Made by a program: the position numbers and the translations under genes. A DNA stretch of 64,000 nucleotides from contig NZ_BMIK01000002.1 of assembly GCF_014642075.1 (NCBI RefSeq), positions 434,001 to 498,000 of the forward strand, given 5' to 3'. This document shows, piece after piece, positions 13,023 through 27,326 of this stretch (positions are counted from its first letter, which is position 1; each line of letters opens with the position of its first letter). A model generated the notes under the pieces. It was given only the letters and a program-made list of their open reading frames with translations. It did not search any database and was not told the origin of the DNA. The stretch is from Parapedobacter defluvii (GTDB taxonomy: Bacteria > Bacteroidota > Bacteroidia > Sphingobacteriales > Sphingobacteriaceae).

Positions 13023-13127
13023 CTTCCATAATGCAAAAATACCAATTATCATTTTATCATTCACCCTGTATTCGCTTCCTTATTTCCCCTTTATCTTCCT
13101 TACATTCCCGTCCGTTGCCGATAAAGG

Positions 13128-13520
13128 TTACCAATTTTCAGTACTTATATCTTCTACTTGCCTAAAATGAGCGTCTCGTGTTATTAGCGTCAAATTATGT
13201 TGCCTTGCTATTGCTGCAATCCAGATGTCATTTTCAGGTATTGGTTTGCCTTTACTCAACAAAGCCGCTTTAATCATTGCATAAGCATTGGCTGTATTGG
13301 CATCAGTGCCTATGAGTTCGCATTTCTTTAGAAAGCCGTTGATTTGTGCCACATGTTTGGCGAAATTGGATGAGCGATAAGCTCCAAGTAACAACTCGCC
13401 CAAAACGACAGTTGATATTTTGACAAGTGGCAAAACCCCAAGTTGTTTGATGACATTGGGATTACCTTTAAACAACTCGATGACGATGTTTGTATCAAGG
13501 ATGATGTTACTTCCAGTCAT
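13128..13520 (-). CDS. vapC: VapC-type PIN-domain toxin
   Basis: A 130-residue PIN-domain ribonuclease, the toxin of a type II module. The four acidic active-site residues are visible: Asp9 (IILDTNIVIE), Glu42 (VLGELLLG), Asp98 (PENDIWIAA) and Asp116 (ITRDAHF). VapC toxins cleave tRNA or rRNA and are restrained by the cognate antitoxin. Its start overlaps the end of the upstream antitoxin gene by 14 bases, the usual coupled arrangement. The module lies between an IS3 remnant and a second toxin-antitoxin module. Confidence 0.93.
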   Translation of the reverse strand: MTGSNIILDTNIVIELFKGNPNVIKQLGVLPLVKISTVVLGELLLGAYRSSNFAKHVAQINGFLKKCELIGTDANTANAYAMIKAALLSKGKPIPENDIWIAAIARQHNLTLITRDAHFRQVEDISTENW

Positions 13521-13746
13521 CAGGATGTATGGTTTCGCACCCCTCTTCGATTGCCCGTTCTATCTCTTCGGCTTCTTCTTTCGACCATATCCCCGAGAAC
13601 TCGGCGAAAGCAGATTTTTTCGTAGGCTTCGCTTTACTTTTAATCTTTGCTTTATTTAAAAAATCTTCGAGGGCTAACAATGTGTCGTCGCTTTTTATTT
13701 TCAATACTTCTTCTATCAAGTGCAGCTTCCTCGCTTCTGAGTACAT
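13507..13746 (-). CDS. Antitoxin partner of VapC
   Basis: A 79-residue, charged helical protein directly upstream of and overlapping vapC, in the place of a VapB antitoxin. Residues 1-30 form two helices of the type found in short antitoxins (LIEEVLKIKSDDTLLALEDFLNKA), then a basic linker and an acidic C-terminal helix (KEEAEEIERAIEEGCE) that probably wraps the toxin. It has no obvious AbrB or ribbon-helix-helix motif. GCCTCC upstream on the plus strand reads as GGAGGC, a good ribosome-binding site for this start. Assignment rests on position and size. Confidence 0.75.
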   Translation of the reverse strand: MYSEARKLHLIEEVLKIKSDDTLLALEDFLNKAKIKSKAKPTKKSAFAEFSGIWSKEEAEEIERAIEEGCETIHPDDWK

Positions 13747-13830
13747 GTGTGCCTCCTTTCAGTTTTAATGCAAAATTACTGAATTTACTTAACTCTTTCC
13801 GCTCCCTGTCATAGAATGTTCGTTTCCATC
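13739..13830. repeat. Partial duplication, copy A (relic of an XRE gene 3' end)
   Basis: This stretch resembles 14338-14425. Read on the minus strand, 13792-13830 still encodes a C-terminus DGNEHSMTGSGKS plus stop, closely matching the DGNVRSMTGSGKG plus stop of the XRE gene at 14381, and the following bases up to the antitoxin start are also similar. It is a relic of a second copy of that gene end. Confidence 0.75.
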
Positions 13831-13853
13831 CGTTGTCGCAATATCAGTGGTGG

Positions 13854-14111
13854 TTAGTAATGCCCTTTTGCGGAAACAACCACAATCCGCTCACTTTCCA
13901 CCTTATATACCAAGCGGTGTTCCTGTGTTATCCGACGACTCCAATAGCCTTTATGGCTATGCTTTAGGGGCTCGGGTTTCCCAACCCCTTCAAACGGTGT
14001 CCGCGCAGTGATAGTAATTAGCTCATGGATTTTCAATAGGGTCTTGGGGTTGTTCTTGGCCCACCAACCCAAATGACCCCATGCCAAAGGCTGAATATTG
14101 ATATCCAGCAT
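13854..14111 (-). CDS. yoeB: YoeB-family mRNA interferase toxin
   Basis: An 85-residue Txe/YoeB toxin that cleaves mRNA on the ribosome. All expected active-site residues are present in family context: Glu47 in GKPEPLKH, Arg66 in RRITQEHRLVY, and the C-terminal His84-Tyr85. It is full length, so it is probably functional. The start codon overlaps the end of the upstream antitoxin gene by one base, giving translational coupling. It sits between the XRE gene with its antitoxin and the relic duplication at 13792-13830. Confidence 0.94.
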   Translation of the reverse strand: MLDINIQPLAWGHLGWWAKNNPKTLLKIHELITITARTPFEGVGKPEPLKHSHKGYWSRRITQEHRLVYKVESERIVVVSAKGHY

Positions 14112-14347
14112 TACCCGATAACCATTTTTTCAAGTTGTACTTTCAAGTCTTCCGGACTTATCGTTGTGCCTTCTACCTTGCCGGACTCGTATTGCTTAAT
14201 AGCCCTTAATATCTCAGGGTTACTGATTGCCTTACTTTCTTTTTCAGGCTTGGTTTTAATTTTAATAGGAACACCGGCAATCTCGGCCATTTGCCGAAAA
14301 AGCGAGGTTAGCTTTTCATCCGCATGTTCGATAATGATGGTATTCAT
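14111..14347 (-). CDS. Antitoxin partner of YoeB
   Basis: A 78-residue protein translated just before yoeB. It starts with a beta-strand (MNTIIIEH), then a helix (EKLTSLFRQMAEIAG), a basic linker and a C-terminal helical region (PEILRAIKQYESGK, ISPEDLKVQLEKMV). This resembles the small DUF2683-like antitoxins of Bacteroidota rather than the classical YefM/Phd fold. The antitoxin of the third module (26992) has similar layout, so the two may be distant relatives. Assignment is by position, size and coupling with a clear toxin. Confidence 0.75.
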   Translation of the reverse strand: MNTIIIEHADEKLTSLFRQMAEIAGVPIKIKTKPEKESKAISNPEILRAIKQYESGKVEGTTISPEDLKVQLEKMVIG

Positions 14348-14425
14348 ATCAGCTCCTTTTGTTTACTGTTCGAAAATTCCTTAACCCTTTCCACTTCCGG
14401 TCATAGAACGCACGTTTCCATCTGC
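14338..14425. repeat. Partial duplication, copy B
   Basis: Counterpart of copy A at 13739-13830. It spans the antitoxin start, its ribosome-binding region and the last codons of the XRE gene. The best-conserved block is about 14389-14418 (CTTTCC, GTCATAGAA and CGTTTCCATC all shared). Confidence 0.75.
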
Positions 14426-14890
14426 AACGGGTTCTTCGCTTGCAGCCGTTTTCTTTTTCGTACGCAAAGGTGCTTTTGCTGGCTGAGCGGGCTTTGCATG
14501 TTGCGCTTCTCCACCTTTCAGTGCCTCTAACTCGGCTTTCAATTTCGAAAGCTCGTCTTTTAATGCTTCTTTTTCTTCGTATTCCTTCAACAACTCCTCC
14601 TTGAAATACTTGATGACCTCTTTGATGGGATGGTTGTGCTGGTTGGTTGCACAAAAGAAGAATTGAAAATCACTATTTTTATTGAACTTCTTAATAGCCT
14701 CAACGGTGGTCCCCATTGCCTTAGCTACCCGTTCCATGATTTCTTCCGAAGGTAATTCTTTCTGTTCCATTTTTGATACGTTTTGTTGGGCCATGCCAAT
14801 CAATTTGCCTAAAGTCTCCTGCTTCATGCCTTTCAGCACGCGCATATCACGTATATTCTGACCAAGATGAACTTTTCGTGCTTGTGCCAT
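14381..14890 (-). CDS. XRE-family helix-turn-helix regulator with coiled-coil tail
   Basis: A 169-residue DNA-binding protein. Residues about 8-65 form an XRE/Cro-type HTH (LGQNIRDMRVLKGMKQETLGKLIG, QQNVSKMEQ). Residues about 85-130 are a Glu/Lys-rich coiled coil (KEELLKEYEEKEALKDELSKL) suited to dimerisation, followed by a Pro/Ala/Lys-rich disordered tail. It lies upstream of the YoeB module and may regulate it. An 8-bp inverted repeat at 14934-14963 lies 44 bases before the start and is a likely autoregulatory operator. The ATG at 14893 is an equally possible start. Confidence 0.85.
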   Translation of the reverse strand: MAQARKVHLGQNIRDMRVLKGMKQETLGKLIGMAQQNVSKMEQKELPSEEIMERVAKAMGTTVEAIKKFNKNSDFQFFFCATNQHNHPIKEVIKYFKEELLKEYEEKEALKDELSKLKAELEALKGGEAQHAKPAQPAKAPLRTKKKTAASEEPVADGNVRSMTGSGKG

Positions 14891-14914
14891 CATAAAGGTG
14901 TATTGCTGATACCA

Positions 14915-14963
14915 CAAATATACAAAATGTTTTTGGGTGTACGGAATATGTATTTTACACCCA
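14915..14963 (-). promoter_or_regulatory. Promoter -7 box and inverted-repeat operator of the XRE gene
   Basis: On the minus strand TATATTTG (plus 14915-14922) fits the TAnnTTTG -7 consensus. Just upstream, a perfect inverted repeat TGGGTGTA (14934-14941) / TACACCCA (14956-14963) has 22 bp between centres, two helical turns, and covers the -33 region. No good -33 TTTG is seen, so regulation by a bound dimer is plausible. Confidence 0.6.
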
Positions 14964-15440: not shown

Positions 15441-15852
15441 TTTTGGTAAAAGTATCAAATTAACCAACGTTTTCTTTCACTTAAATCCAACAATAAACTT
15501 AGTGACAGCGATCTCGTTAATGCCACTGAGAAATTGACCAAAACACGAACAAATGAAGCAAAAATTACGCTTAGGGGATAGCTACGTCTATAAAATCAGG
15601 TTGCTGCTGTTTATCAATCAGCTGACAACAAACAAACTAAGCTATAAACAGAAACAATTACAACCCGATGGGAGCCCCGGGATCGTACGTCACGATTCTG
15701 TCTCTCGTTATCGCCGATTAATAGATAAGTTTTACTTCGGTGTTACCCGGGTACCTTACACTTATTCTACACCATACAAAAAGTGGCGAATACGTGGTAA
15801 ATATGTGGCTAATATGTGGAGCAAAGATGGGGCAAGAATATCTACACGGAGG

Positions 15853-16629
15853 ATGGCGGCTGCTCTAAGTCCGTGGCAGCTTAGTCCGTTTGTGTGCATT
15901 TGTCGAAAAAATATTGAAAAGTCATGTGTTTGGACCCATGCGAAGGTTCCAGCCCGTAGCGGGCTGGGCCTCGCTTTGGGGATTACCTGTTTAATGCTGG
16001 GCATCCTCAGCGTTCCATCTGTTGCCCAAACCAACAATGGACTCGTTTTGGAAAAAGATGCGGACCTGGTGAGGTTTCCCAAGATAAAACATAACCCCGA
16101 CCTCAGTAAGGTGGGCGGTCTGGTGCCGGGGGATACGATACCCGATTACCTGTGGGACCTGCCGTTATGGGTGGTCAACCATCCCGAAGGGAAGGATACG
16201 ATCACGCTCCGGGAATATGAACACAGCAAGCTGCTGGTGCTCGATCTCTGGACCACATGGTGCGCCCCCTGCATCAAATCGGTGGAAAAATGGATCGATA
16301 TCCAGCGGCATTATCCCGGGGAAATCGATGTGGTCACCATACACATGGATTTTGATTACAAGGCACTTCCCTTTGTGCAGCACCGTGGATGGAAATATCC
16401 GGTAGTAATCGGGGAGGGAAGGGTGCTGGTAAGCAGGCATTTCTTCACCCAGCAGACACCGGGCGGAGTGGTACTTATCAAGGATGGTAAGGTCTTCTCC
16501 ATACCGTCCTGGCGCTCATACGACGCCGGGATTATCGGAGATATTTTGGCGGGTAACATCAAAAACTTTCCTTCGGTAACCGATGTGACGCATTATGGAA
16601 ATCTAATCAAACAGGATACAATCAATTAA
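15853..16629 (+). CDS. TlpA-like thiol oxidoreductase
   Basis: An exported thioredoxin-fold protein of about 258 residues. A hydrophobic export segment (GLGLALGITCLMLGILSVPSVAQ) is followed by a thioredoxin-like domain with the active site WCAPC (Cys137 and Cys140 from this start), a VTIHMDFD strand and a cis-Pro-type TPGG loop. It probably acts in the periplasm on disulfides. It is 18 bases before the second SusC gene. The start is uncertain: 15814 (ATG), 15853 (ATG) and 15892 (GTG) are all in frame, and an 8-bp hairpin at 15949-15967 lies just before the hydrophobic segment. Context links it to the MauE-type genes at 21.8-25.4 kb. Confidence 0.85.
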   Translation: MAAALSPWQLSPFVCICRKNIEKSCVWTHAKVPARSGLGLALGITCLMLGILSVPSVAQTNNGLVLEKDADLVRFPKIKHNPDLSKVGGLVPGDTIPDYLWDLPLWVVNHPEGKDTITLREYEHSKLLVLDLWTTWCAPCIKSVEKWIDIQRHYPGEIDVVTIHMDFDYKALPFVQHRGWKYPVVIGEGRVLVSRHFFTQQTPGGVVLIKDGKVFSIPSWRSYDAGIIGDILAGNIKNFPSVTDVTHYGNLIKQDTIN

Positions 16630-16647
16630 CCAACCCTAAACTGAATC

Positions 16648-19600
16648 ATGAAACGTAAGATCGCATTAGCTGCTTTTTATGTGCTTGCATGGATATGGCC
16701 ATGCATCGCACAACAGGAAATCAACGGATTTGTCTATTCATCCAGTAATCAGATGCCGTTGCACGGTGCCAGCGTGCAACTGAAGAAAGCCGGTCAGATC
16801 CGGCACAGCGGGCCGGATGGAGGGTTCAAGCTTGAACTGACGGGCAATGATACGCTGCTGGTATCATTCGTGGGATACATTCCCCGATACATTCCGGTGA
16901 CCGTTGAGCCACAACAGCTACTGGAAATATACCTGGAGCCCGAAGCAGAGACATTGGAAGAGGTGGTAATCAATACGGGATATTACCAAGTGCCCCGGGA
17001 ACGGGCCACGGGTTCCTTTGTGCATGTGGATAACCAGACGCTCAACCGCGTTGTCGGGGGCAGTATCCTCCAACGGTTGGAGGGAATCGCACCGGGCGTG
17101 CAGTTCACCAATGCGGGCGGCACTTCGGCCTCAGACATACGGGTGCGTGGATTGGCAACGATACAATCCGATGAAACACCGCTGATCGTGTTGGACGGTT
17201 TCCCCTACGAAGGTGACATCAATACCATCAACCCCAATGACATTGAAAGCGTTACCGTACTGAAAGATGCCGCTGCGGCCAGCATCTGGGGTGCCCGTGC
17301 GGGCAATGGGGTCATCGTGATCACTACCAAGCAGGGACGGTACGGCCAAAAGGCACAGATATCCTTCAACAACAATGTAACCATCGGGGAAAAGCCGGAC
17401 CTGTTCTACAACCAAAACCGGCTGCCCAGCGACATCGTGATGCAGATAGAGAAGGAGAAGTACGAACGAGGTGGCTACTATAACGAGGCCGCTACCCAGG
17501 CACCGTTCCCGGAGTATGTGGAACTGTTGATCAGGCGTGACCAAGGACTGATCTCCGGAGAGAAGTTTACCCAACAGGAAACCATACTCCGCAATACCGA
17601 GGTACGCGACGAAGCACTCCGCTATCTCTACCGACCCTCGCAATACAGGCAGCATGCCTTGAATGTAAGGGGCGGCGGTGAAACCATGCGTTACGCCTTC
17701 GGTCTGGGATATGACAGAAACCGGAGTACGATAGTGGGCAATGGCAACGATCGGCTGAACATCAACATGCAGAATACATTCAAGCCATTGGAGGGTTTAG
17801 AGTTAAGCGGCAGTATATGGTATACCAGCCAGGGTACCGAAACAAATGGCCTTACGCTCGATGACCTGGGCAGCGGCGCCACGAATTTCGGCCTTTCGCC
17901 CTATATCCGGCTAAGGGATGAAATGGGAAACAGTCTACCCGTCGTGAAGGACTATCGCATGCCCTATAAGGAAAGCATGGCCGCGGAAGGCTTACTGGAT
18001 TGGCAATTCCGGCCGCTGGATGAAATCACCATGGCCGACAACCGCACGAAAGGCACTGAAATGAGGCTCAATGGCGGTGTGCGGTACGCATTCCTCCGGC
18101 ATTTTAACCTGTCTGCCGACTACCAGTTTGTTCGGGGCGAAAGCCAGACCATCCAGCATTATACGCCGGACAGCTACTACGTGCGTAATCTGGTAAACCG
18201 CTATACCCAGGAGGACGGCACGCAGGTGATCCCTCATAACCACATCCTGTACGGCCAGCGTCCAGCCGGGCAACATGCCCACTCGGCAAGGGGGCAGTTG
18301 AACTATAGCCGTGATTTCGGCAGTGACCATGCGGTGGCACTGCTGGCGGGTGCCGAAATGCGCAGTGGCGTCCGCGAAACGGAACCGGGTTACCGGCTGT
18401 ATAACTACGACCCGGAATACCGCACGGGCAACACCAATTTTGACTACGTAACCCGCTACCCGACAAGACCGCGGCTAACGGGTACCATTCCCGAGCAGCC
18501 GAGTGGAAGGGACGGCTATATGGACCGGTTCCTGTCTTACTATGGCAACGGAAGCTATACATACAGGAAGCGGTATATACTCTCCGCCTCGTTGCGGTGG
18601 GATGGCAGTAATCTCTTTGGGGTGAAGACCAACCAGCGGGGAACTCCCCTGTGGTCGGTGGGCGGGAGCTGGGAAGCCAGCGGGGAGCGTTTCTATCCCA
18701 TCGCGGACTGGCTGCCTTACCTTCGCCTCCGCGGGACGTATGGCAGCGCAGGGAATGTCAACAAATCGGTAAGTGCATATCCGGTTATCCGCTATGCGAT
18801 GGATACCGGACGTGACCTTCAATATGCCGATCTGCAAAGCGCGGGGAATCCCTCACTGCGATGGGAACAGGTAAACACGCTGAACATGGGCATGGATTGG
18901 CGGACGATGGGCAACCGTATAACCGGCAGTATTGAATACTATACAAAATGGGCACAGGATCTTATAGGTGCCGATTACCTGCCGCCGAGCACGGGTATCA
19001 TAACGGGAGGGACCGCCGTAGCAACCAACCTGATAAACTATGCCGACTTACAGACAAAGGGCGTTGATGTACAGATAAACAGCCTGAACCTGAATGGCGG
19101 CATTACCTGGAAAAGCCTGTTGATGGTAAGCTGGGTGCGGAACCGCGTGACGCACTTCAATACCGGGGAAGTCGCGACTATAGGGAACTATTTCACCAGC
19201 CCGCCGCCTGTGGTCGGCCGGTCCAGGGATGCCCTGTACGCGCTGCCGTGGGCGGGCCTGGACCACGAAACTGGCATGCCGTTGGTATGGTATGACGGGG
19301 CGCTTGGTGCCGAATACAGCGACTACTACCGCAACTACGATCCGGCAGACCTGCGTATTGAAGGTGTGAGGGTACCGTCTTTCTACGGGTCGCTCAGGAA
19401 TGATGTTTCCTGGAAGGGCATCGCGCTGAGTGTGCTGGTCACTTGGAAAACCAACTACGTATTTCGCAGGGAGTCAATTTATCCCGGTGTGGAATATGAC
19501 GGGGGATATCACATGGACTACTTCCGGCGGTGGCAGAAGCCCGGCGACGAACGGATCACCGATGTGCCCGCGTGGGCCGAAAGCTCGGAAACCTACAGGA

Positions 19601-19854
19601 CACAGGTATACCGGCATTCCGAAGCCCTTGTCGATAGGGGAGATCACGTACGTATACAGGATGTGAATCTCAGCTATGCATTTCCACGTGATCTGCTGGG
19701 ACGGCTGCCTATTGCCGGTATTCGGCTATACGGCTATGTGCGTAACGTGGGTATCTTATGGAAGTCGACCCAAACGGGCATTGACCCGGACTATGTAACG
19801 GCCGAATACCCTGCCCCCCGGACATTTGCATTTGGTGTACAAGTAGATTTTTAA
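16648..19854 (+). CDS. SusC/RagA-family TonB-dependent transporter (second locus)
   Basis: A 1068-residue outer-membrane transporter. Signal peptide about 1-21 (ending CIAQ), carboxypeptidase-D-like domain (about 24-95), TonB-box-like LEEVVINTGYY, plug domain (about 110-235, LVLDGFPYEGDINTINPNDIESVTVLKDAAAAS is the usual plug signature region) and a large barrel ending FAFGVQVDF. No STN domain. The GC content is clearly higher than in the first SusC gene, hinting at a different history. It lies between the TlpA-like gene (18 bases) and its SusD partner (8 bases), so the three form an operon. Confidence 0.95.
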   Translation: MKRKIALAAFYVLAWIWPCIAQQEINGFVYSSSNQMPLHGASVQLKKAGQIRHSGPDGGFKLELTGNDTLLVSFVGYIPRYIPVTVEPQQLLEIYLEPEAETLEEVVINTGYYQVPRERATGSFVHVDNQTLNRVVGGSILQRLEGIAPGVQFTNAGGTSASDIRVRGLATIQSDETPLIVLDGFPYEGDINTINPNDIESVTVLKDAAAASIWGARAGNGVIVITTKQGRYGQKAQISFNNNVTIGEKPDLFYNQNRLPSDIVMQIEKEKYERGGYYNEAATQAPFPEYVELLIRRDQGLISGEKFTQQETILRNTEVRDEALRYLYRPSQYRQHALNVRGGGETMRYAFGLGYDRNRSTIVGNGNDRLNINMQNTFKPLEGLELSGSIWYTSQGTETNGLTLDDLGSGATNFGLSPYIRLRDEMGNSLPVVKDYRMPYKESMAAEGLLDWQFRPLDEITMADNRTKGTEMRLNGGVRYAFLRHFNLSADYQFVRGESQTIQHYTPDSYYVRNLVNRYTQEDGTQVIPHNHILYGQRPAGQHAHSARGQLNYSRDFGSDHAVALLAGAEMRSGVRETEPGYRLYNYDPEYRTGNTNFDYVTRYPTRPRLTGTIPEQPSGRDGYMDRFLSYYGNGSYTYRKRYILSASLRWDGSNLFGVKTNQRGTPLWSVGGSWEASGERFYPIADWLPYLRLRGTYGSAGNVNKSVSAYPVIRYAMDTGRDLQYADLQSAGNPSLRWEQVNTLNMGMDWRTMGNRITGSIEYYTKWAQDLIGADYLPPSTGIITGGTAVATNLINYADLQTKGVDVQINSLNLNGGITWKSLLMVSWVRNRVTHFNTGEVATIGNYFTSPPPVVGRSRDALYALPWAGLDHETGMPLVWYDGALGAEYSDYYRNYDPADLRIEGVRVPSFYGSLRNDVSWKGIALSVLVTWKTNYVFRRESIYPGVEYDGGYHMDYFRRWQKPGDERITDVPAWAESSETYRTQVYRHSEALVDRGDHVRIQDVNLSYAFPRDLLGRLPIAGIRLYGYVRNVGILWKSTQTGIDPDYVTAEYPAPRTFAFGVQVDF

Positions 19855-19862
19855 GGATAAAG

Positions 19863-21236
19863 ATGAACATGATGAAAAAAGAAACAGTTTTGTCTCTCGC
19901 CGCATTGCTCGTTTGCACGGCTTGCGGCAGGAATTTTCTGGATATCAAGCCCGATGTCAGGCTCACCGTACCGAACACCGTGCAGGACTACGATGCGTTA
20001 CTCAACCATATACGGATGAATACCGCGGCAAGTGTCGAGCTTGGAATCATCGGAAGCGACGAGTATTATATCCCCGATGGGACCCTGACCACACTCTCCG
20101 GAGCGGACGAGCGTAACGCATATATATGGGCAACGGAAATCTTCGAAGGCGACGAGTCGGCGGATTGGAACCGTGCCTACGAGCGGATTTTATACGCCAA
20201 TATGGCGTTGGAAGTTGAAAAAATTACACCGGCGGACAAGGAAATCGCCCTGTGGAAAAACGTAAAGGGTTCGGCGCTGTTTTTCCGTGCATTGAATTAT
20301 TACCAGCTCGCCCAGCTCTTCTGCCAAATCTACGATGCGGCGACGGCCGCTTCGGTACCCGGCATCCCGCTCCGGCTTGAATACGATGTGACGCAACGGG
20401 TAGGACGTGGTACGCTGGCACAGACATACCGCCGGATACTGGATGACGCAACAGCGGCCGTGGAGCTCCTACCCGAAATGGCAGTTGATAAAAAGCGACC
20501 AAACAAAGCTGCTGGACATGCGTTGCTCAGCAGGATTTACCTTCAAATGGCAGACTATGGACTCGCTGAAAAGCATGCGAGCCTGAGTCTGCAATTACAG
20601 GACGATCTGATCGATTTAAATACCCTTGATCCGACACTAAATTATCCATTTCCTGAGGATGTCAACCAAAATATTGAAGTATTGTTCGACAATGGTGGCG
20701 GGGCCGCGACAATTGTAGGACTTGCCAGATTTAACGCGGATACCACGTTACTGGCCTTATATAGTGATCGCGATCTGCGTAGGGATGTCTACTACTTTGC
20801 ACATACTAACGGGGCAACGATATTCGGTGGGGGGTACGTGAGGAGTACCCGGACATGGATTGGATTGGCTACTGATGAAATGTGGATTACACGTGCGGAA
20901 TGCAGGGCAAGGCTCGGTGATGTTCAGGGGGCACTTGAAGACCTAAACCACCTGTTGCGGTACCGGTTCCGCGATGGGATGTTTGATCCGATAAAGGAAA
21001 GTAATGCTGAAGAAGTATTGCGGATCGTCTTACAGGAACGCCGTAAGGAGCTGGTTATGCGGGGTACGCGATGGGAGGATTTACGCCGGTTGAGCAATGA
21101 TCCGCGCTTCGCTGGAACCTTGGTACGGATGATTGATGGACAGCGATATGAATTGCCCGCGGGAGATCCGAGGTGGGTCTGGCCGATACCGGATAATGAA
21201 GTGGAACTGAATAAGCTTGAGCAAAATATCAGGTAA
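19863..21236 (+). CDS. SusD/RagB-family lipoprotein (second locus)
   Basis: A 457-residue surface lipoprotein partner of the preceding SusC. The signal peptide ends in VCTAC (Cys about 20), followed by GRNFLDIKPD, the typical SusD N-terminus. The helical core includes LFFRALNYYQLAQLFCQIYD, and the C-terminal part holds ERRKELVMRGTRWEDLRRLSNDPR, the family signature. Starts at 19863, 19869 or 19872 are all possible. The last 700 bases are less GC-rich than the first part, which may reflect recombination. A perfect 15-bp hairpin terminator follows. Confidence 0.93.
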   Translation: MNMMKKETVLSLAALLVCTACGRNFLDIKPDVRLTVPNTVQDYDALLNHIRMNTAASVELGIIGSDEYYIPDGTLTTLSGADERNAYIWATEIFEGDESADWNRAYERILYANMALEVEKITPADKEIALWKNVKGSALFFRALNYYQLAQLFCQIYDAATAASVPGIPLRLEYDVTQRVGRGTLAQTYRRILDDATAAVELLPEMAVDKKRPNKAAGHALLSRIYLQMADYGLAEKHASLSLQLQDDLIDLNTLDPTLNYPFPEDVNQNIEVLFDNGGGAATIVGLARFNADTTLLALYSDRDLRRDVYYFAHTNGATIFGGGYVRSTRTWIGLATDEMWITRAECRARLGDVQGALEDLNHLLRYRFRDGMFDPIKESNAEEVLRIVLQERRKELVMRGTRWEDLRRLSNDPRFAGTLVRMIDGQRYELPAGDPRWVWPIPDNEVELNKLEQNIR

Positions 21237-21245
21237 GTGATCAAT

Positions 21246-21279
21246 TTACCGAGGCGGCAGATTCCTGCCGCCTCGGTAA
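21246..21279. terminator. Bidirectional hairpin between convergent operons
   Basis: A perfect 15-bp stem (21246-21260 with 21265-21279, core ACCGAGGCGGCAG/CTGCCGCCTCGGT) with a 4-base loop. There is no long T-tract, but it lies exactly between the SusD stop and the stop of the convergent peptide gene. Confidence 0.8.
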
Positions 21280-21289
21280 TCTCCCATCA

Positions 21290-21652
21290 TCATTCTTCCG
21301 GATGATCGGCGGTAAGAAGCGTACCAAAAGTATCCCTTGCTTCGGCAATCGTTTCAGGTTTATCCTGCGGATCATCGAGCGTAAGCTGGACGGAACACAT
21401 GATGGTTTCGTTTTCCGTCGCACACTGGTCTTCGCTCGAACCGATAAAAGGAGCATCTGTTTCGTTACCGATCAGTAGCTCTTCCTCGTTCTCCGGACTG
21501 CCTCCGGGAGCGACGGTTACCGAATACCAGGCCGTATCGAGTTTTTTCTCGGTAAACTTAAAGGCCGAAAACCCGATCATCATGCCCGTCAGGGCCAGCA
21601 TAAAAAAGTAACGTTTCGTTATATCTATTGCTTTGTTTACAATCTTATTCAT
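21290..21652 (-). CDS. Small exported two-cysteine peptide (DUF6520-like)
   Basis: A 120-residue exported protein. A basic N-terminus and hydrophobic segment (about 16-31, FFMLALTGMMIGFSAF) form a signal peptide, followed by an acidic mature part with two cysteines, Cys77 and Cys86 (QCATENETIMCSVQL). It resembles the small DUF6520 proteins of Bacteroidota, though I cannot confirm membership. Neighbouring MauE-type and thioredoxin-like proteins suggest that its cysteine pair is a redox substrate. The start at 21652 is used; an upstream ATG at 21694 lacks a plausible N-terminus. An 11-bp direct repeat with 21-bp period lies about 90-120 bases upstream. Confidence 0.65.
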   Translation of the reverse strand: MNKIVNKAIDITKRYFFMLALTGMMIGFSAFKFTEKKLDTAWYSVTVAPGGSPENEEELLIGNETDAPFIGSSEDQCATENETIMCSVQLTLDDPQDKPETIAEARDTFGTLLTADHPEE

Positions 21653-21742
21653 ACAATGGACTTTTCTTTCGCATTTGGAAAAAAAGCACCCCAAAAAAAG
21701 GTTTGATTTGACTTATGGCTCTTCAAAGCCGTTACACTTATT

Positions 21743-21774
21743 ATTCCGGTCACTGACGTGGAGATTCCGGTCAC
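21743..21774 (-). promoter_or_regulatory. 11-bp direct repeat with 21-bp period (LytTR-like operator)
   Basis: ATTCCGGTCAC occurs at 21743-21753 and again at 21764-21774. Two direct repeats spaced by two helical turns, upstream of a promoter, are the geometry recognised by LytTR regulators; such a regulator is encoded at 25625. The position fits control of the two-cysteine peptide gene. Confidence 0.5.
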
Positions 21775-21822
21775 GTGCCTTTACATTTACCCTCGGTAGT
21801 TTCGCACAGACAGGGTGAGTTT

Positions 21823-22410
21823 TTACAAGGCCCTGCGCCTGAATAGTGCAAACTTGCGGGGAAAACGTTTAGGAAAAGTAAACACACATCGTTTAACAAT
21901 AAAGTGTCCGGAAATATCGCGGGTTTCGGCCGGCTGCCGGAATATCTGCACGGACTTCCGGTATTTCCGCCGGCAGCCGCTGGCTTGGCGCGTGGGCCAC
22001 GTAAGCCACACACCAAGTACCGCCAGCAGGAAGAAAACGGCATTGAACCACAGATGATCGTTCCATGAGAGCCCGCTGATCACCGATCCGCATCCGCACG
22101 GGCGCTTTTCGTACCAACCCAGCACACCGAAAAGAATGAATAGTGTAAAAACCAGCATCAGGATGGCCGATAGCCACATGCCCTGCTGGGTGCGTCTTCG
22201 GCTTCGGGGCCAGGCAAGCAGTATTGCGGCACCCAATTCTAACAATGGTAGCAACCAGAACAGGATGTCAGCACTCCACTGCGGAATCGGCTGACGCCGC
22301 AGGGTGCTGTAGAACCCGGAAAGATCCCACAGCTTCTCTACGGCTACCGGAACCCACAAGGCAAGCAACGCTAACTTGATAATACCTACTATGATGGATT
22401 TCTTTTCCAT
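21823..22410 (-). CDS. MauE/DoxX-type redox membrane protein
   Basis: A 195-residue inner-membrane protein with four hydrophobic segments (about 7-24, 47-66, 77-98 and 115-138). Between segments 3 and 4 is the motif RPCGCGSVI with Cys105 and Cys107, the signature of MauE-like proteins, which are thought to pass electrons to or from disulfides. The last 45 residues are unusually basic (CRRKYRKSVQIF to FRRRAL) and may be cytoplasmic or partly spurious. Its start overlaps the end of the upstream 157-residue gene by 22 bases, so the two are co-translated. Confidence 0.8.
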   Translation of the reverse strand: MEKKSIIVGIIKLALLALWVPVAVEKLWDLSGFYSTLRRQPIPQWSADILFWLLPLLELGAAILLAWPRSRRRTQQGMWLSAILMLVFTLFILFGVLGWYEKRPCGCGSVISGLSWNDHLWFNAVFFLLAVLGVWLTWPTRQASGCRRKYRKSVQIFRQPAETRDISGHFIVKRCVFTFPKRFPRKFALFRRRAL

Positions 22411-22862
22411 AACCCTTGTTTTTTCTTAATTGTATACATCCGTTCGGAAACTAATCGTTGGATATCGGTCAATCTGCTGATTTGCTGTTTCTGCGATTCG
22501 GTGGCGGTGTAAAACCAGAACAGACTGTCCAGCCATTCCATTAGTTTCGGATCGGCCACTACCGGGCATTGCTCGAAGCCTACAGCCTTGATGCCGAAAC
22601 GCCATTCGACGCATCCACCTGTAACCGACAGGTAGGCCACCCGCTTATCTCTTGGGTCGTTGTGGTACAGCCGGATGATGAACGGCGAAGCATAGGTATC
22701 GGCATAGACCATATTACCGAAGCCCTGCAGCCAGTCCATCTTGACCTGATGGGTCCGTTCGCGGAAGAGCCGATGCCAAAATGCTTGGATCATCGCCGGA
22801 GTAGTGGCTGGGGTAGGCGAGGTTGCCCAGGTTTTCATCGGTATGTGTTGTAATGTTTTCAT
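22389..22862 (-). CDS. Conserved-looking protein of unknown function (157 aa)
   Basis: A 157-residue protein without signal peptide or membrane segment. It contains aromatic-rich patches (MIQAFWHRLFRER, WLDSLFWFYTA) and a central beta-rich part (FIIRLYHNDPRDKRVAYLSVTGGCVEWRFG). The start is supported by GGAGG 10-14 bases upstream. It overlaps the next MauE-type gene by 22 bases. I do not recognise a family; the tight coupling suggests a role with the membrane redox protein. Confidence 0.65.
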   Translation of the reverse strand: MKTLQHIPMKTWATSPTPATTPAMIQAFWHRLFRERTHQVKMDWLQGFGNMVYADTYASPFIIRLYHNDPRDKRVAYLSVTGGCVEWRFGIKAVGFEQCPVVADPKLMEWLDSLFWFYTATESQKQQISRLTDIQRLVSERMYTIKKKQGLWKRNPS

Positions 22863-22966
22863 CTTTTGACCTCCATTGTTTTATTGTCATCGATACAAAA
22901 GAAGATAGGAATCTACTGATATGAATGGGGGACGTAGGTTGCCATATGGTATCGTGTGACGTGTTT

Positions 22967-23105
22967 TTCCGGGGAATTTTCATTCCCCAATATCTTTTGC
23001 GCGCGCTTTCGCTGCTTGCCGGAATCATGCATATCAGGTAGGTTGGCCGCATCCGGCACGCTGGACAATGTGGGGGGCGGATGGGGAAAATCCATTCCCC
23101 GGGAA
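22967..23105. repeat. Pair of inverted GGGGAA/TTCCCC palindromes
   Basis: Two small palindromes, 22967-22990 (GGGGAAT/ATTCCCC) and 23081-23105 (GGGGAA/TTCCCC), are imperfect inverted copies of each other about 90 bases apart, filling the only sizeable gap in this gene cluster. They could form alternative or nested hairpins and may end or attenuate transcription of the upstream unit. Confidence 0.55.
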
Positions 23106-23122
23106 ATGTGAAAAAAAGTAGG

Positions 23123-24205
23123 TTAGCGGTTTTCGGTCTTGTTGAGCTTAAAGTCTTTTTCGAGCAGCTCCAGTTCCTTGATCAGTTGCCTGCGGTAACG
23201 TAGGGCTGGGCCGTATAATGCGGATTTATCAAACTTGGTGAGTGTATGGGCGGATACAGGCTGGCCTGTTTTGCTCAGGTGGGCATTGGTGAAGTCCCTG
23301 GCCGCCTCCTGTTGCGTATCATAGTCAAATTCACCGGCCTTGTGCCGGTAATGGAAGCGGACGGCAATATCGCCTGCGAGTGCATTGGTGCGTAGGGGGT
23401 GGCTATTGGACCCCGTGTCGGAAAGCGATTCCCACAGATGGGCGACCGTAGTTTCCATTAATACTTTGAGCGATGGCCGGTTGGGGTCGAAGGCAAGGGG
23501 AAGGGTGTGATAAAGTTCGACAGTCTCCTGGCACCGACGTAGCACCTCGTCTGCCCGCCCCTCTGCCCAGGCCCGTTCCATTTCGTCGCTGAGGTGCTCC
23601 TTCCACCGGTTGAAGAATCCCATGTAATTGAAATTGTAATTAACCATCGCCTCCATGAAGCGCTTCGGCCAGTCCTTGGTACGTTGGTCTTCGGCGAGCT
23701 GACGCAGCATGCCGATGAATTCGGGTAGGTAGGTGCGGTGATGGTAAACGGGCATCGGTGCTTTCCCTTCTGTAAAAAGAGCGGTCAGGGCATGGCCTAT
23801 TTCCGCGAGGAGCGTTGGTGGTACTTCTTTCTGTTTGAGCTTTTCGATGGTGGGGCGTAGCTCCCTGTGGCTTTCGTGTTGTAATACCTTCACGTGAAAG
23901 TCCGGTAAGGGTTCGCGGGGTGGGATGAGATCGGCAAAAAGCCGTTCATGGCTGGTCAACAGCTTCCATACGGATAGCACGACGATGCTGTCGGCCATCG
24001 CCAACGCCCATTTGTACAAGGCTACGAGGCCGCGGTGGTAACGCAGGAAATCGATGGCGGCGAGCTCTGCACTGGTGTATTCCCTGAATGTACGGGGTAC
24101 ATCTACCTGCAGTTGCAGGCAGATGCCGCTGATGTGGCTGGCGTCATGGCTGCCATCCGCACATTGATCGAGGGCTTGTTGCAACAGTTGTAGAAGTACC
24201 AGCAT
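23123..24205 (-). CDS. Protein of unknown function (360 aa)
   Basis: A 360-residue, mostly helical, cytoplasmic-looking protein with no signal peptide. Residues about 65-85 are mildly hydrophobic (YKWALAMADSIVVLSVWKLL). Many charged helices follow (HLSDEMERAWAEGRADEVLRR). The C-terminal part has RFHYRHKAGEFDYDTQQEAARDF. I do not recognise a domain. It lies 11 bases downstream of the MauE-thioredoxin fusion gene in the same operon, so it probably belongs to the same process. Confidence 0.65.
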   Translation of the reverse strand: MLVLLQLLQQALDQCADGSHDASHISGICLQLQVDVPRTFREYTSAELAAIDFLRYHRGLVALYKWALAMADSIVVLSVWKLLTSHERLFADLIPPREPLPDFHVKVLQHESHRELRPTIEKLKQKEVPPTLLAEIGHALTALFTEGKAPMPVYHHRTYLPEFIGMLRQLAEDQRTKDWPKRFMEAMVNYNFNYMGFFNRWKEHLSDEMERAWAEGRADEVLRRCQETVELYHTLPLAFDPNRPSLKVLMETTVAHLWESLSDTGSNSHPLRTNALAGDIAVRFHYRHKAGEFDYDTQQEAARDFTNAHLSKTGQPVSAHTLTKFDKSALYGPALRYRRQLIKELELLEKDFKLNKTENR

Positions 24206-24216
24206 AGGTAATCGGT

Positions 24217-25137
24217 TTAGGGTTCTTCGTTGTTTGGCTGCACTGGCCGGATGCGGAACCCGTTGGCCAAGTGCCCAGTATGGATATACTTCACGGTATC
24301 GCCTTCGATGACGACCAGTGTGGGTACATGGGATACGGCCGTAACCATCTGCTGGTCGGTAAGCAAACCGAGGGTATCGAAATACCGGCCGTAACCGGGC
24401 CGGAACAGGCTATCCGATACTGCTGCCTGCGACCGGGCGGTGAGGGCTACCACGGCGTCCACCAATCCGGCTTCCCGCCACGATGCCGCATTGGCGGCCA
24501 TGTCTTTGCATAAGGGGCAGTCGGGCCGGTAGAGGTAAAGGGCGTACGTGCTGTCGGCGGAGAGGGGCAGTGCGGCAAAAGGCGTACGGCTTCGTGGAAG
24601 TCCGAGCCAGTGCGGGTTATCAACCCGGTTCCGGCGTAAGGGCCCGTCGAAGCTCATCCCGGCGAGCAGGAAGGCTGCTGCGCCGAATAGGAGGACGATG
24701 GCGCCCCGGATGCGGTTGACCGGCGCTGCTTCCCGGTGGGCTGGATACGCGCTGGCCATCCAGAAGCCGCCCATAAGGAGCAGTGTATTGCGGATATATA
24801 CCCCCCAAGGGGGCAACTGCAGATTTTTTACCGAACCGAAGCAGGCGCAGTCGGTGATGCCCTTGGTTACGAGGCCATAGCTGTATACAAGCGTAAAAGC
24901 CAGGGTGAGCCAGGCAAGCGTACCGGCAATTTCGCGGGGCTGGTAGCCAAGCAATAAGCAGAGTCCCAGCATGGCTTCAACAGGAGGGATAACCACAGCC
25001 ATGACAGCCAGATTGCCCGGCACATACCGGTGCACCAACGCCACGAAGGCCTGGGTATCCAGCACCTTGGCAAAGCCGGAGGTAAGGAAAACCAGTGCAA
25101 TGCCGATACGGACGATAGGGAGTGCTTTGGTTTTCAT
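24217..25137 (-). CDS. MauE-type membrane protein fused to a thioredoxin-like domain
   Basis: A 306-residue fusion. The N-terminal half has four transmembrane segments (about 7-24, 43-64, 70-91, 112-131) and the MauE cysteine motif DCACFGS (Cys97, Cys99), with a fifth hydrophobic segment at about 145-162. The C-terminal part (about 165-306) is an extracytoplasmic thioredoxin-like domain with the active site CPLC (Cys207, Cys210) and a late cis-Pro-like HVPTLVV. Electrons could pass between the membrane cysteine pair and the CXXC within one polypeptide, much as in DsbD-type systems; this is inference. Its start overlaps the end of the 98-residue gene upstream (ATGA). Confidence 0.85.
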   Translation of the reverse strand: MKTKALPIVRIGIALVFLTSGFAKVLDTQAFVALVHRYVPGNLAVMAVVIPPVEAMLGLCLLLGYQPREIAGTLAWLTLAFTLVYSYGLVTKGITDCACFGSVKNLQLPPWGVYIRNTLLLMGGFWMASAYPAHREAAPVNRIRGAIVLLFGAAAFLLAGMSFDGPLRRNRVDNPHWLGLPRSRTPFAALPLSADSTYALYLYRPDCPLCKDMAANAASWREAGLVDAVVALTARSQAAVSDSLFRPGYGRYFDTLGLLTDQQMVTAVSHVPTLVVIEGDTVKYIHTGHLANGFRIRPVQPNNEEP

Positions 25138-25430
25138 GGGCTTACCCTGCGTAGTGAGTCAATCGATTCGAGCAACATCCGCTCCTGTACGTCGCAGGGG
25201 TTGCGGCTTTCGTGATAAGCGTGTAACTGGGCCACCCGCTTCCGTAGCTGGATTTCATCCAGCAATTGCAGGTGCGCTTTCTCCTCGGGCTCAAAGCAGG
25301 GCGACGGGGTGGCGATTAATACCAATGCAAAGGCCAGCGACACAGCGGGGAGGGCTAGCGGATGGATGGCGATGCGGCGGCATCCGTGCAGGTACCAGTG
25401 GTACAGCTCATTGAAGTGCGTGGTTTTCAT
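25134..25430 (-). CDS. Small membrane-anchored protein of unknown function
   Basis: A 98-residue protein with one transmembrane helix (about 24-42, HPLALPAVSLAFALVLIAT) followed by an extracytoplasmic or cytoplasmic helical tail. Two cysteines (Cys45, in SPCFEPEE, and Cys79, in NPCDVQE) are present. It is the first gene of the minus-strand redox cluster, overlapping the MauE-thioredoxin gene by four bases. Function unknown. Confidence 0.6.
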   Translation of the reverse strand: MKTTHFNELYHWYLHGCRRIAIHPLALPAVSLAFALVLIATPSPCFEPEEKAHLQLLDEIQLRKRVAQLHAYHESRNPCDVQERMLLESIDSLRRVSP

Positions 25431-25490
25431 TTTAGTGGGTTTTAGGCAAACTTACGCAAGCGGTATGGTATTGACACCCAGAGAGCGTGT

Positions 25491-25551
25491 CTATCCGTCG
25501 ATGGGCGCTATCCATCTGCCAATGTGTGCTGTCCATCCATCGATGGACAGC
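25491..25551 (+). promoter_or_regulatory. Direct repeats and palindrome before the LytTR gene
   Basis: The 9-mer CTRTCCRTC occurs at 25491-25499, 25508-25516 and 25529-25537; the last two have a 21-bp period. The third overlaps a perfect palindrome GCTGTCCATC (25528-25537) / GATGGACAGC (25542-25551). The array lies between the divergent redox cluster and the LytTR gene, so it could control both. Confidence 0.55.
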
Positions 25552-25624
25552 ATTACAATTGTGAAACGTACGGTTATTTGGTACCTTAGCATGGAACTAA
25601 TCGGTGTTTGAACCGACCGGGCCA

Positions 25625-26506
25625 ATGAAGATGATTGATCGTATCAAATCGCTCCGCTACTGGCTGATTCCGATCCTTTCGGTTTTGGTAGGGGAAGTGA
25701 TGGTCATTTCGTTACTGACCATGTGGTCTGTTGGGCCTTGGTACCGGATGTATCCTCATCCTGAATTCCGATTACTGATTTGGGCATTCATGTCCGCGGC
25801 GTTCGGTATGGCGTTTGCCGTATTCGTGGTTACGCTCGCGTTAAACAGTTGGCCGTGGTTGATGCGGTGTATGTTGCGGCGTTACCTCGCACAGGCTGTG
25901 GTGGGGATTTTTGGCCTGGGGTTGCTGGGGTATGCATACAGCAACCTGTTTTGGCGCGCGCTGGGCGAAAGCTTGTTGTTGCTTGAGAATGGCAGGGGCA
26001 TTCCGTGGTGGGCGGCGATTTACCTGATTGCGCTGAACTTCGCTTTTGTGTTTATGCCCATGTCGGTCGGATTCATGCAGTCCGGGGTGTCCCCGCGCGA
26101 CGGGTATCTTAAGCATCTCTTGGGTACGGACGAAACGGGTCGGGTGCAAGAAGTTTCGCTGGAGTGGGAGGTAGCTTACATGAATTCCTTCGATGACCGG
26201 CAGCGGGTGTTTCGCCGTGACCCGGAATTGCCTCCGCTGGCATTGGATACTTCGCTGAAAAAGCTGGCGCCAAAAATCGACCCGGATAACTATTGCTGGA
26301 TAAACCGCAACTATATCGTCCATTGGCGAGCCATCCGAGCGCTCAGGCCCGACAAGAAAAGGCGGCTGGAGGTTTGGCTCGATCCGCCGAATTACAGTGA
26401 ACTGCATCCGGATAAAGAATCCTGTACGTATGTCCGCAAAGAGCGGGTAGATGAAGTGATGGGTTGGTATCAGGCGTGTTTGGTAAGGGAGACCAGTGGT
26501 TCTTAA
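25625..26506 (+). CDS. Membrane-bound LytTR-family transcriptional regulator
   Basis: A 293-residue regulator with four transmembrane segments in the first 150 residues (about 10-32, 44-66, 78-100, 120-142) and a C-terminal LytTR DNA-binding domain (about 190-290). The LytTR signature is seen in LALDTSLKKLAPKIDPDNYCWINRNYIVHWRAI and the final TYVRKERVDEVMGWY. No receiver domain is present, so it probably senses a membrane signal directly, as in other membrane-LytTR proteins. It is divergent from the redox cluster. The GTG at 25604 is an alternative start. The repeats at 25491-25551 are candidate autoregulatory sites. Confidence 0.85.
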   Translation: MKMIDRIKSLRYWLIPILSVLVGEVMVISLLTMWSVGPWYRMYPHPEFRLLIWAFMSAAFGMAFAVFVVTLALNSWPWLMRCMLRRYLAQAVVGIFGLGLLGYAYSNLFWRALGESLLLLENGRGIPWWAAIYLIALNFAFVFMPMSVGFMQSGVSPRDGYLKHLLGTDETGRVQEVSLEWEVAYMNSFDDRQRVFRRDPELPPLALDTSLKKLAPKIDPDNYCWINRNYIVHWRAIRALRPDKKRRLEVWLDPPNYSELHPDKESCTYVRKERVDEVMGWYQACLVRETSGS

Positions 26507-26707: not shown

Positions 26708-26995
26708 TTAAAACATCGGTTCCTGCCGATTGTCCCAAAAGAAAAGGACCTTAATACGATCCTGTCTGACTTCGTAAAATACAGAGGATATTTTGTCAAT
26801 TAAGGCCCGTCTGATAGTAGGATCAAATTTGCTTGCTTGATACAAATATGGATTCTGGCTAATTAGCTCTAATGTTTTGATAGTGTTTTTTTCAAAGCGC
26901 CTTTCATATTTCTCTCCAAACCTTTCATTGATCTGCGCACAAATTGCATCGAAGGATTCGACTGCACGTTCGGATAGGTCGATAGGTAAGCTCAC
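26708..26995 (-). CDS. RelE/ParE-family toxin
   Basis: A 95-residue protein of the RelE/ParE fold: an N-terminal strand (SLPIDLSERAVESFDAI), a helical hairpin (NERFGEKYERRFEKNTIKTLELI) and C-terminal strands (ISSVFYEVRQDRIKVLFFWDNRQEP). The absence of the RelE Arg/Tyr catalytic set at the expected places makes a ParE-like gyrase-type toxin as likely as an mRNA interferase. Its start overlaps the antitoxin stop by four bases. It is the third toxin-antitoxin module in the window. Confidence 0.85.
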   Translation of the reverse strand: MSLPIDLSERAVESFDAICAQINERFGEKYERRFEKNTIKTLELISQNPYLYQASKFDPTIRRALIDKISSVFYEVRQDRIKVLFFWDNRQEPMF

Positions 26996-27201
26996 CGTTT
27001 ATTGGCAATTTTTTCCTTGAATGCCTCAAAGGTAATCGTTCGTCCAGCGTCAATATCCGCCTGTCCTCTTTTTATACTTTCGATGACATGCTGAGGTAAC
27101 GTCTCGTCACTTTGGTGTTCAAAGGGTACTTTAAGAGCTTCAAGGAATGCCCTGAGAGCTTTCTCCTGTGACTTATTGGGGTGTACGATATATGTATCCA
27201 T
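26992..27201 (-). CDS. Antitoxin partner of the RelE/ParE toxin
   Basis: A 69-residue (73 from the alternative start at 27213) charged protein with an N-terminal strand (MDTYIVHP), a helix (EKALRAFLEALKVPFE) and a C-terminal helical part (ESIKRGQADIDAGRTITFEAFKEKI). The layout resembles DUF2683-like antitoxins and the YoeB partner at 14111. It is translationally coupled (ATGA) to the toxin. Assignment rests mainly on context. Confidence 0.75.
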   Translation of the reverse strand: MDTYIVHPNKSQEKALRAFLEALKVPFEHQSDETLPQHVIESIKRGQADIDAGRTITFEAFKEKIANKR

Positions 27202-27326
27202 TTGTATGTCCATTGATAACGGTCAGGCTAAGATACCAAAAAATACCGCTTTTTCAATAGGCGGAAGCTTACTTAGCCCCTGTCACGCTTTCAACGCCAA
27301 CAGGGGCTCCGTAAAATCCAAATTTC

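Follow-up and report, generated by a model that had tools for sequence, protein, structure and literature searches.

A candidate ligand-receptor cassette: a two-cysteine peptide and its SusC-type transporter in Parapedobacter defluvii

In a stretch of 64,000 nucleotides of Parapedobacter defluvii (contig NZ_BMIK01000002.1, positions 434,001 to 498,000; referred to as the window), the gene of a small two-cysteine peptide with a signal sequence lies tail to tail with an operon coding for a TlpA-like thioredoxin protein, a SusC-type outer-membrane transporter and a SusD-type lipoprotein. SusCD complexes are known as nutrient importers. What, then, ties a peptide encoded by the cell's own genome to such a transporter? 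A first-pass annotation of the window had treated the peptide, the SusCD pair and the neighbouring genes as one thiol-redox system. Our answer, tentative and with the balance just short of even, is that the locus is an exchangeable ligand-receptor cassette consisting of a self-made peptide and its own SusC receptor.

Relatives of the locus were collected with a peptide profile that was built from Parapedobacter loci already found beside SusCD and favours peptides with both cysteines. Because the genome searches scored the 10 to 11 best candidates per genome, all tallies are lower bounds. The first profile matched in 6 of the 9 genus genomes and the profile used across the family in at least 67 of 399 family genomes; farther out matches were few, with at least 8 of 395 genomes sampled across the phylum, the own genome included. 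P. defluvii itself carries at least five loci with an intact peptide (C2, C11, C1, C3 and C28), each beside TlpA-SusC-SusD. At a sixth TlpA/SusD/SusC locus (C23, L033) a convergent open reading frame (ORF; L033:10073-10300) has the cysteine pair and lacks the signal part.

Family hits were scored with the peptide profile alone. From about 106 places 80 were fetched and their genes called by a simple ORF caller; the remainder were Parapedobacter loci, one G026 locus already in the set and some of the weakest hits, including G090, G099, G230, G359, G377 and G380. In all 80 loci a convergent SusD or TlpA gene lay no more than six genes from the peptide. The gene following the peptide was a convergent SusD in 68 loci, a convergent TlpA in four, a second peptide in five and another gene in three. 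Since these loci had been found by the peptide profile alone, the SusCD/TlpA arrangement is more than chance, and the link between peptide and SusCD that the first-pass annotation had proposed is borne out (SusD/SusC/TlpA convergent in 80/80). Conservation of the peptide cysteines had been set beforehand as a test of that proposal. Both cysteines were invariant in an alignment of 55 peptides (55/55), with Trp42 and Pro69 nearly invariant, and the spaced pair was kept in 99 of 99 peptides when the 80 fetched loci were joined by 19 selected for a peptide adjoining SusD. Among 18 Parapedobacter-centred peptides Trp42, Cys77 and Cys86 were invariant. Three of four places outside the family showed MauE, a membrane protein family, together with the peptide and a convergent SusD or TlpA; the fourth (E 9.8e-4) showed none of these and is probably a chance match. 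The recurring core is the peptide, SusD, SusC and TlpA, often with MauE adjoining the peptide.

Within this core the peptide is matched to SusC. Mantel tests were run on 82 loci with all four genes, dereplicated to 69. Divergence of the mature peptide correlated with that of SusC (r 0.53), SusD (r 0.31) and TlpA (r 0.17); for MauE r was 0.10 (P 0.07, 42 loci). With SusD held constant the correlation between mature peptide and SusC was 0.457 (P 0.001). The plain correlation with SusC was unchanged in between-genome pairs alone (r 0.526). The signal part of the peptide behaved differently from the mature part, with r of 0.372 for MauE (P 0.001), -0.048 for SusC, -0.013 for SusD, 0.001 for TlpA and 0.036 for its own mature part. 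Because the signal part tracks MauE and the mature part tracks SusC, the peptide gene is a mosaic with its joint between the two parts. A sliding window along SusC showed no single binding region; r was 0.09 to 0.19 in the N-terminal accessory domain and mostly 0.2 to 0.47 elsewhere.

Linked genes share a history, and the peptide might simply ride with the SusCD locus, with no functional link. Yet SusD, which sits between the peptide and SusC on the DNA, added nothing once SusC was held constant (mature peptide-SusD r -0.016, mature peptide-TlpA r -0.026), and the signal part of the very same gene is uncorrelated with SusC. Co-inheritance alone is unlikely given the partial correlations and the signal-part result, and we give it hardly any chance.

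The matched genes are also found on shared blocks. An 8.2-kb block is 97% identical between L061 of P. soli and L062 of P. indicus. One of its borders lies 201 bp ahead of the peptide ORF, the other 90 bp into the gene that opens the SusCD operon; no similarity was reported beyond the block. Of the between-genome pairs examined, all seven had this second border within the operon's opening gene. The reverse situation is seen in L111 and L144, two loci of one genome. There identity reaches 97.6% across MauE and 94 bases at the start of the peptide gene, and 88.7% across the TlpA leader and the DNA upstream of it. In protein, SusD identity is only 32% and that of the peptide 50%; SusC reaches 81%. 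The leader, i.e. the start of the operon's first gene, occurs in the whole own genome in five exact copies and two with two mismatches (reversed control 0), and the bases flanking four leader copies are mutually unlike. We rejected the leader as a universal feature because a loose regular expression for it matched only 29 of 80 family operon starts; plain short N-termini were common.

For a broader comparison of the ends, same-genome pairs with SusC below 70% identity were set against different-genome pairs of the same genus group, a class that pools all minor genera as one group. The leader end was shared in 33 of 45 same-genome pairs and in 147 of 1608 different-genome pairs (permutation P 0.0005), and was in register in 21/45 compared with 110/1608 (P 0.0005). 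The peptide end was in register in 10/45 compared with 100/1608 (P 0.004). In the largest genus the leader end was in register in 9 of 16 same-genome and 62 of 1439 different-genome pairs, and for the peptide end in register P was 0.035. The peptide-SusD-SusC-TlpA cassette thus appears to be swapped between constant ends. In the exchange that we propose, the module of mature peptide, SusD, SusC and TlpA would move between two constant 5' ends. The first end would comprise MauE and the sequence upstream of the peptide together with its signal part; the second would comprise the leader start and the TlpA operon's promoter region, where an XRE-type gene is divergent. Since the peptide gene and the SusCD operon converge, a single exchange between both 5' ends would replace ligand and receptor together, and the tail-to-tail layout would thereby be accounted for. 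Such matched and exchangeable pairs of peptide and SusC, bounded by constant 5' ends, are what a ligand and its receptor would be expected to show, and judged from these sequence patterns the peptide is most likely the cognate ligand of its SusC.

Several results weigh against this view. Within the largest SusC clade (41 loci) r of the mature peptide fell to 0.35 with SusC and 0.18 with SusD. Nearest-neighbour agreement was modest; of 69 loci it was found in 30 for SusC-SusD, 26 for SusC-peptide, 20 for TlpA-peptide and 19 for SusD-peptide. The start of the exchanged blocks was not uniform, being near the peptide in four of the seven between-genome pairs and including MauE in three. The peptide end was shared in 16 of 45 same-genome and 252 of 1608 different-genome pairs (P 0.02), which is weaker than the leader end, and in the largest genus the difference was not significant (4/16 and 215/1439, P 0.11). 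In Parapedobacter alone the leader end was in register in 11 of 28 and 47 of 142 pairs (P 0.31), a null result partly due to differing called ORF starts. The next gene upstream of the peptide was MauE in only 45 of 80 loci. Moreover, none of the genes in the window block could be recognised as an exporter. Finally, a SusC-specific accessory of the periplasm would yield the same co-divergence.

This last point leads to the main rival explanation, in which the peptide stays in the cell and serves its SusC from the periplasm as a dedicated subunit that assists assembly, gates or acts like a plug, with MauE oxidising it for folding. SusC-specific co-divergence and joint exchange would thereby be explained without an exporter. 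An AlphaFold2 model of the peptide (mean predicted local distance difference test, pLDDT, 76.6; predicted template modelling score 0.56) has a long N-terminal helix (residues 3-32), a small sheet (strands 39-47, 59-65 and 86-92) and a second helix (102-109), and the predicted N-terminal helix could be an uncleaved anchor. In addition, purifying selection on the mature peptide is strong among loci of one cassette type, as would suit a subunit. Pooled ratios of nonsynonymous to synonymous polymorphism were 0.15 for the mature peptide, 0.17 for SusD, 0.20 for SusC, 0.31 for MauE and 0.40 for the signal part, from ten overlapping pairs sharing loci, the SusC value of L167/L168 including leader read into the ORF. 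On the other hand, a subunit by itself leaves the convergent units, the constant ends and the neighbouring regulators unexplained. Nor does it explain that between types the peptide diverges more than SusC (median difference 0.80 vs 0.63). We consider this alternative unlikely, though it deserves more weight than those discussed below.

Next we considered what the peptide itself resembles. A scan of 55 peptides against NCBIfam gave no family, and the model had no match in the PDB at E <= 0.001 (best E 1.6). DUF6520 (PF20130) gave weak matches for 14 of the 55 peptides (best E 3.7e-4); the window peptide had no match to it at E <= 1 and did not reach the curated Pfam cut-off. Thus the peptide is at best a remote relative of DUF6520. 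All 11 DUF6520 loci checked encoded MauE upstream on the same strand, as does the window locus, and none of the 11 had SusC, SusD or TlpA within about 3.2 kb. Because the MauE-peptide pair also occurs at these loci, it looks like a more general module, with SusCD/TlpA as the partner of the window-type branch. The last eight residues of the peptides are rich in arginine and lysine (0.165 vs 0.036 upstream). Of 69 peptides, 40 carry a short aromatic/Ala-basic motif (5.2 expected from shuffles, maximum 12).

Siderophore systems are an established case of ligand-receptor matching, and by analogy the peptide could be a secreted carrier, metallophore- or hemophore-like, that is taken back by SusC. 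A carrier is hard to reconcile with the conservation pattern, in which only Trp42 and Pro69 are nearly invariant besides the two cysteines. Nor did the block contain a recognisable gene related to metals or haem, and the fold search described above gave no match. We regard this as quite improbable.

Upstream of the peptide start, a T-run, T-run, A-run element is common to 18 loci chosen by eye, including that of the window, across genera. At L128 and L146 changes on both sides of the element seem, by eye, to preserve complementarity. RNA folding of the region 5' of the peptide start gave no general signal over all loci (mean z -0.63, mononucleotide shuffles). At L021:16277-17107 MauE and the two-cysteine peptide share one open frame, possibly as a fusion or with a peptide start inside the frame. 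Tandem peptides ahead of a single SusD were seen at L134, L138, L140, L141 and L142, which are near-identical loci of five genomes.

The block contains a TlpA with CXXC, MauE with CGC, a fusion of MauE to a CPLC thioredoxin-like stretch and small cysteine-bearing proteins. The locus might therefore be mainly a thiol-redox relay that moves electrons through paired cysteines, with the peptide as one substrate among others. A role of MauE in disulfide formation has been speculated on for methylamine dehydrogenase (PMC7794033). Against a relay, it is the redox proteins that are matched least and replaced most readily, as the low MauE-peptide correlation and the rarity of the fusion illustrate, and SusC is the matched one. 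Like the carrier, the relay is quite improbable to us. Indeed, of the genes that the first-pass annotation had expected to find together elsewhere, the core with its frequent MauE recurs and several others are rare. The fusion was present in 5 of 251 family genomes (own included) and adjoined a peptide in one of the other four, the 98-residue cysteine protein in one of nine genus genomes, the own one, and the 360-residue protein in 4 of 60 genomes, counting its own. The view of the whole block as one system is thus not supported. That it is richer in guanine plus cytosine (GC) than its neighbours was correctly noted (53.2% compared with 43.1% in the AT-rich left flank and 49.3% in the right flank; six other stretches of the same genome had 45.6 to 50.6%). 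The joint transfer of the whole block that this had suggested was rejected because the modules exchange separately, the mature peptide going with SusC and the signal part with MauE.

Regulatory genes recur near the peptide. LytTR-like proteins were encoded upstream of the peptide at family loci in 11 of 74 (x319) and 8 of 74 cases (x321), and relatives of the 360-residue protein in 6 of 74. In loci lacking an adjoining MauE the next gene was often a CRP-like regulator (seven by profile) or an AraC-type one, the latter recognised by eye with one confirmed by Pfam. At the position of the XRE-type gene (alignment A6), HTH_3 was matched in at least 27 of 71 genes and HTH_26 in 21; these counts are totals for the alignment and are not resolved to individual members. 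The regulators near the peptide differ by locus type, which suggests signalling.

The peptide could also be a bacteriocin-like weapon against kin, with SusCD as entry route or immunity determinant and the cassettes as weapon types. The loci are multi-copy, divergent and exchanged between species as a unit, and Bacteroidetocins, peptide toxins of the same phylum that act at an outer-membrane protein (PMC8546649), provide a precedent. However, neither an immunity-type gene nor a dedicated exporter was recognised in the window block. Nine window proteins, SusC and SusD not among them, were scanned with PADLOC; eight had no defence match at E <= 0.01, and the ninth, the XRE protein, matched general helix-turn-helix (HTH) models only. 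Furthermore, a weapon whose receptor is always encoded alongside would strike its producer first. A weapon is improbable in our view, if somewhat less so than a carrier or a relay.

Returning to the ligand-receptor cassette, the following sequence of events is conceivable. The peptide would enter the periplasm by its signal sequence, where MauE, to judge from its family, may form the single disulfide. The folded peptide would then meet its own SusC(D), and TlpA, again by family analogy, might reduce or isomerise it upon arrival in the periplasm. It could act as a ligand of self-recognition or as a pheromone-like signal. Several private peptide/SusC channels would coexist in a genome, and the XRE, CRP-like and LytTR neighbours may couple the peptide to expression.

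The features of the window locus are compiled in Table 1. The genes named in the first-pass annotation open at, or very near, the places where it had put them and match, some of them weakly, the families it had assigned. The peptide cysteines Cys77 and Cys86 are encoded where it had seen them (codons 21424-21422 and 21397-21395), and its two unknown proteins, of 157 and 360 residues, had no Pfam or NCBIfam match at E <= 0.1. The model of the 360-residue protein had no match in the PDB at E <= 0.001 (best E 0.85), and a likeness to RteC seen by eye was dropped as it found no Pfam support. For the small membrane protein said to have two cysteines, the hydrophobic stretch followed by two cysteines is present; the translation has three in total.

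Table 1. Features of the peptide-SusCD locus and its surroundings (window coordinates).
Feature	Position	Strand	Remarks
XRE (Cro/C1)-type helix-turn-helix gene	14381..14917	-	divergent from TlpA-SusC-SusD operon; PADLOC HTH models E 3.7e-8
Leader end of first operon gene	15553..15575	+	start codon and following 20 bases; peptide MKQKLRL
TlpA-like protein	15553..16629	+	long variable N-terminal extension; hydrophobic segment from about residue 137; WCAPC thioredoxin-like domain
SusC/RagA-type TonB-linked outer-membrane protein	16648..19854	+	TIGR04056 E 2.9e-154; proposed specific peptide partner
SusD-type lipoprotein	19863..21236	+	SusD-like_3 E 9.7e-32
Two-cysteine peptide, 120 residues	21290..21652	-	tail to tail with SusD; stop codons 53 bp apart
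Peptide mature part	21293..21550	-	Trp42, Cys77, Cys86, acidic middle; tracks SusC
Peptide signal part	21551..21652	-	tracks MauE; outside the putative swapped cassette; edge approximate
Upstream element: T-run, T-run, A-run (possible hairpin)	21653..21703	-	immediately 5' of peptide start codon
MauE-family membrane protein, CGC	21823..22410	-	Pfam MauE (PF07291) E 7.9e-26; next gene upstream of peptide
157-residue accessory protein	22389..22862	-	no Pfam/NCBIfam family; relatives at peptide loci L021, L023, L059, L123
360-residue all-helical accessory protein	23123..24205	-	no family; predicted, mean pLDDT 88.3
MauE domain and CPLC thioredoxin-like stretch	24217..25137	-	MauE E 3.9e-19; rare extra
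98-residue protein, one hydrophobic stretch, three Cys	25134..25430	-	within genus only in own genome
Membrane-bound LytTR-type regulator	25628..26506	+	divergent from MauE operon; LytTR E 3.1e-4, slightly short of cut-off

The SusC and SusD genes lie 8 bp apart in one operon, as a SusCD transporter requires. Bit scores for MauE (PF07291) were 91.3 for the MauE protein and 69.7 for the fusion protein, both above the curated cut-off of 27; the thioredoxin part of the fusion (24217-25137) alone reached only E 0.23. The TlpA-like protein matched AhpC-TSA with E 1.5e-5, slightly short of the curated cut-off. Its N-terminal frame (window 15553-15960; L101, L154, L099, L166 and others) is long and unconserved and still open, and in 36 of 87 TlpA ORFs more than 60 residues, up to 490, precede the hydrophobic segment. 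At L032, L057 and L058 the first gene of the SusCD operon codes for a met-zincin protease (DUF4953/DUF5117/DUF5118), probably also at L061 and L062 as judged from length and position; the leader type at the start of this gene is the same. L031 (G000:C10), where a MauE fragment and an orphan leader start remain but TlpA is missing, may be the relic of a seventh locus. By eye, the surroundings of the block on either side (12654-13064, 13128-14347 and 26708-27213) contain a transposase-like end and several small gene pairs that look like toxin-antitoxin modules, resembling a variable region.

How does the locus compare with known systems? A search of open-access full text, subscription journals and preprints lying outside its coverage, found no paper combining TlpA, SusC, SusD and MauE, none with NVEAL, and none combining peptide pheromone, Bacteroidetes and TonB-dependent receptor. 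Among the open-access papers listed for DUF6520 or Bacteroidota none contained DUF6520, although one lacking the word Bacteroidota could be missed. The novelty is the arrangement and the proposed partnership; the proteins, except for the peptide and some accessories, belong to known families. Polysaccharide utilisation loci likewise have SusC, SusD and nearby regulators; here, however, no carbohydrate enzyme was recognised in the block (ORF translations, Pfam, NCBIfam), and some Parapedobacter loci begin with the met-zincin protease. The maturation of methylamine dehydrogenase (mauE/mauD) also employs a MauE membrane protein and a thioredoxin-like protein, but the block has no recognisable methylamine dehydrogenase genes, and the substrate here would be the peptide. 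DUF6520 shares with the window peptide the format of a small signal-bearing cysteine protein with MauE upstream on the same strand; it differs in that the window peptide has no Pfam match and DUF6520 loci lack the SusCD/TlpA partner. If the partnership proposed here holds, it would provide the first functional setting for relatives of this uncharacterised pair.

RagAB of Porphyromonas gingivalis is likewise a SusC/SusD-type pair with a bound peptide, and the window SusC matches RagA with E 3.5e-50, although the solved chains closest to it are 8ypu/8ypt. According to PMC11817032, at least 26 residues of RagA touch the bound peptide, against at least 8 of RagB; to this extent RagA-dominated contacts fit the prevalence of SusC over SusD seen here. 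RagAB imports peptides from digested proteins, whereas the transporter described here is linked to a peptide gene in the genome; window-type loci also include TlpA in the operon and often have MauE next to the peptide gene. If a SusC has co-diversified with the adjoining peptide, part of a very large transporter family would recognise products of the cell itself.

A parallel in organisation is found in Gram-positive bacteria. In the pherotype loci agr and ComQXP, constant ends enclose a variable block that encodes the cell's own peptide and the receptor for it, and matched pairs are exchanged. Whether the present loci amount to an outer-membrane pherotype system of Gram-negative bacteria, with disulfide peptides, matched SusC receptors, tail-to-tail cassettes swapped as units and private channels, is a wider proposition that we hold to be doubtful. 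Convergent genes with an exchange point in either 5' end, of which one falls where signal and mature part of the peptide gene meet, would offer a model for the joint movement of matched partners. The two kinds of locus have no homologous part, and no AgrB/AgrC or ComQ/ComP family was found among the window proteins with Pfam and NCBIfam. Yet here too the peptide and its proposed receptor vary together between constant flanks, although some of the individual tests are weaker, and the differences lie in the components, in that an outer-membrane TonB-linked transporter would serve as receptor and a disulfide would replace the known peptide modifications.

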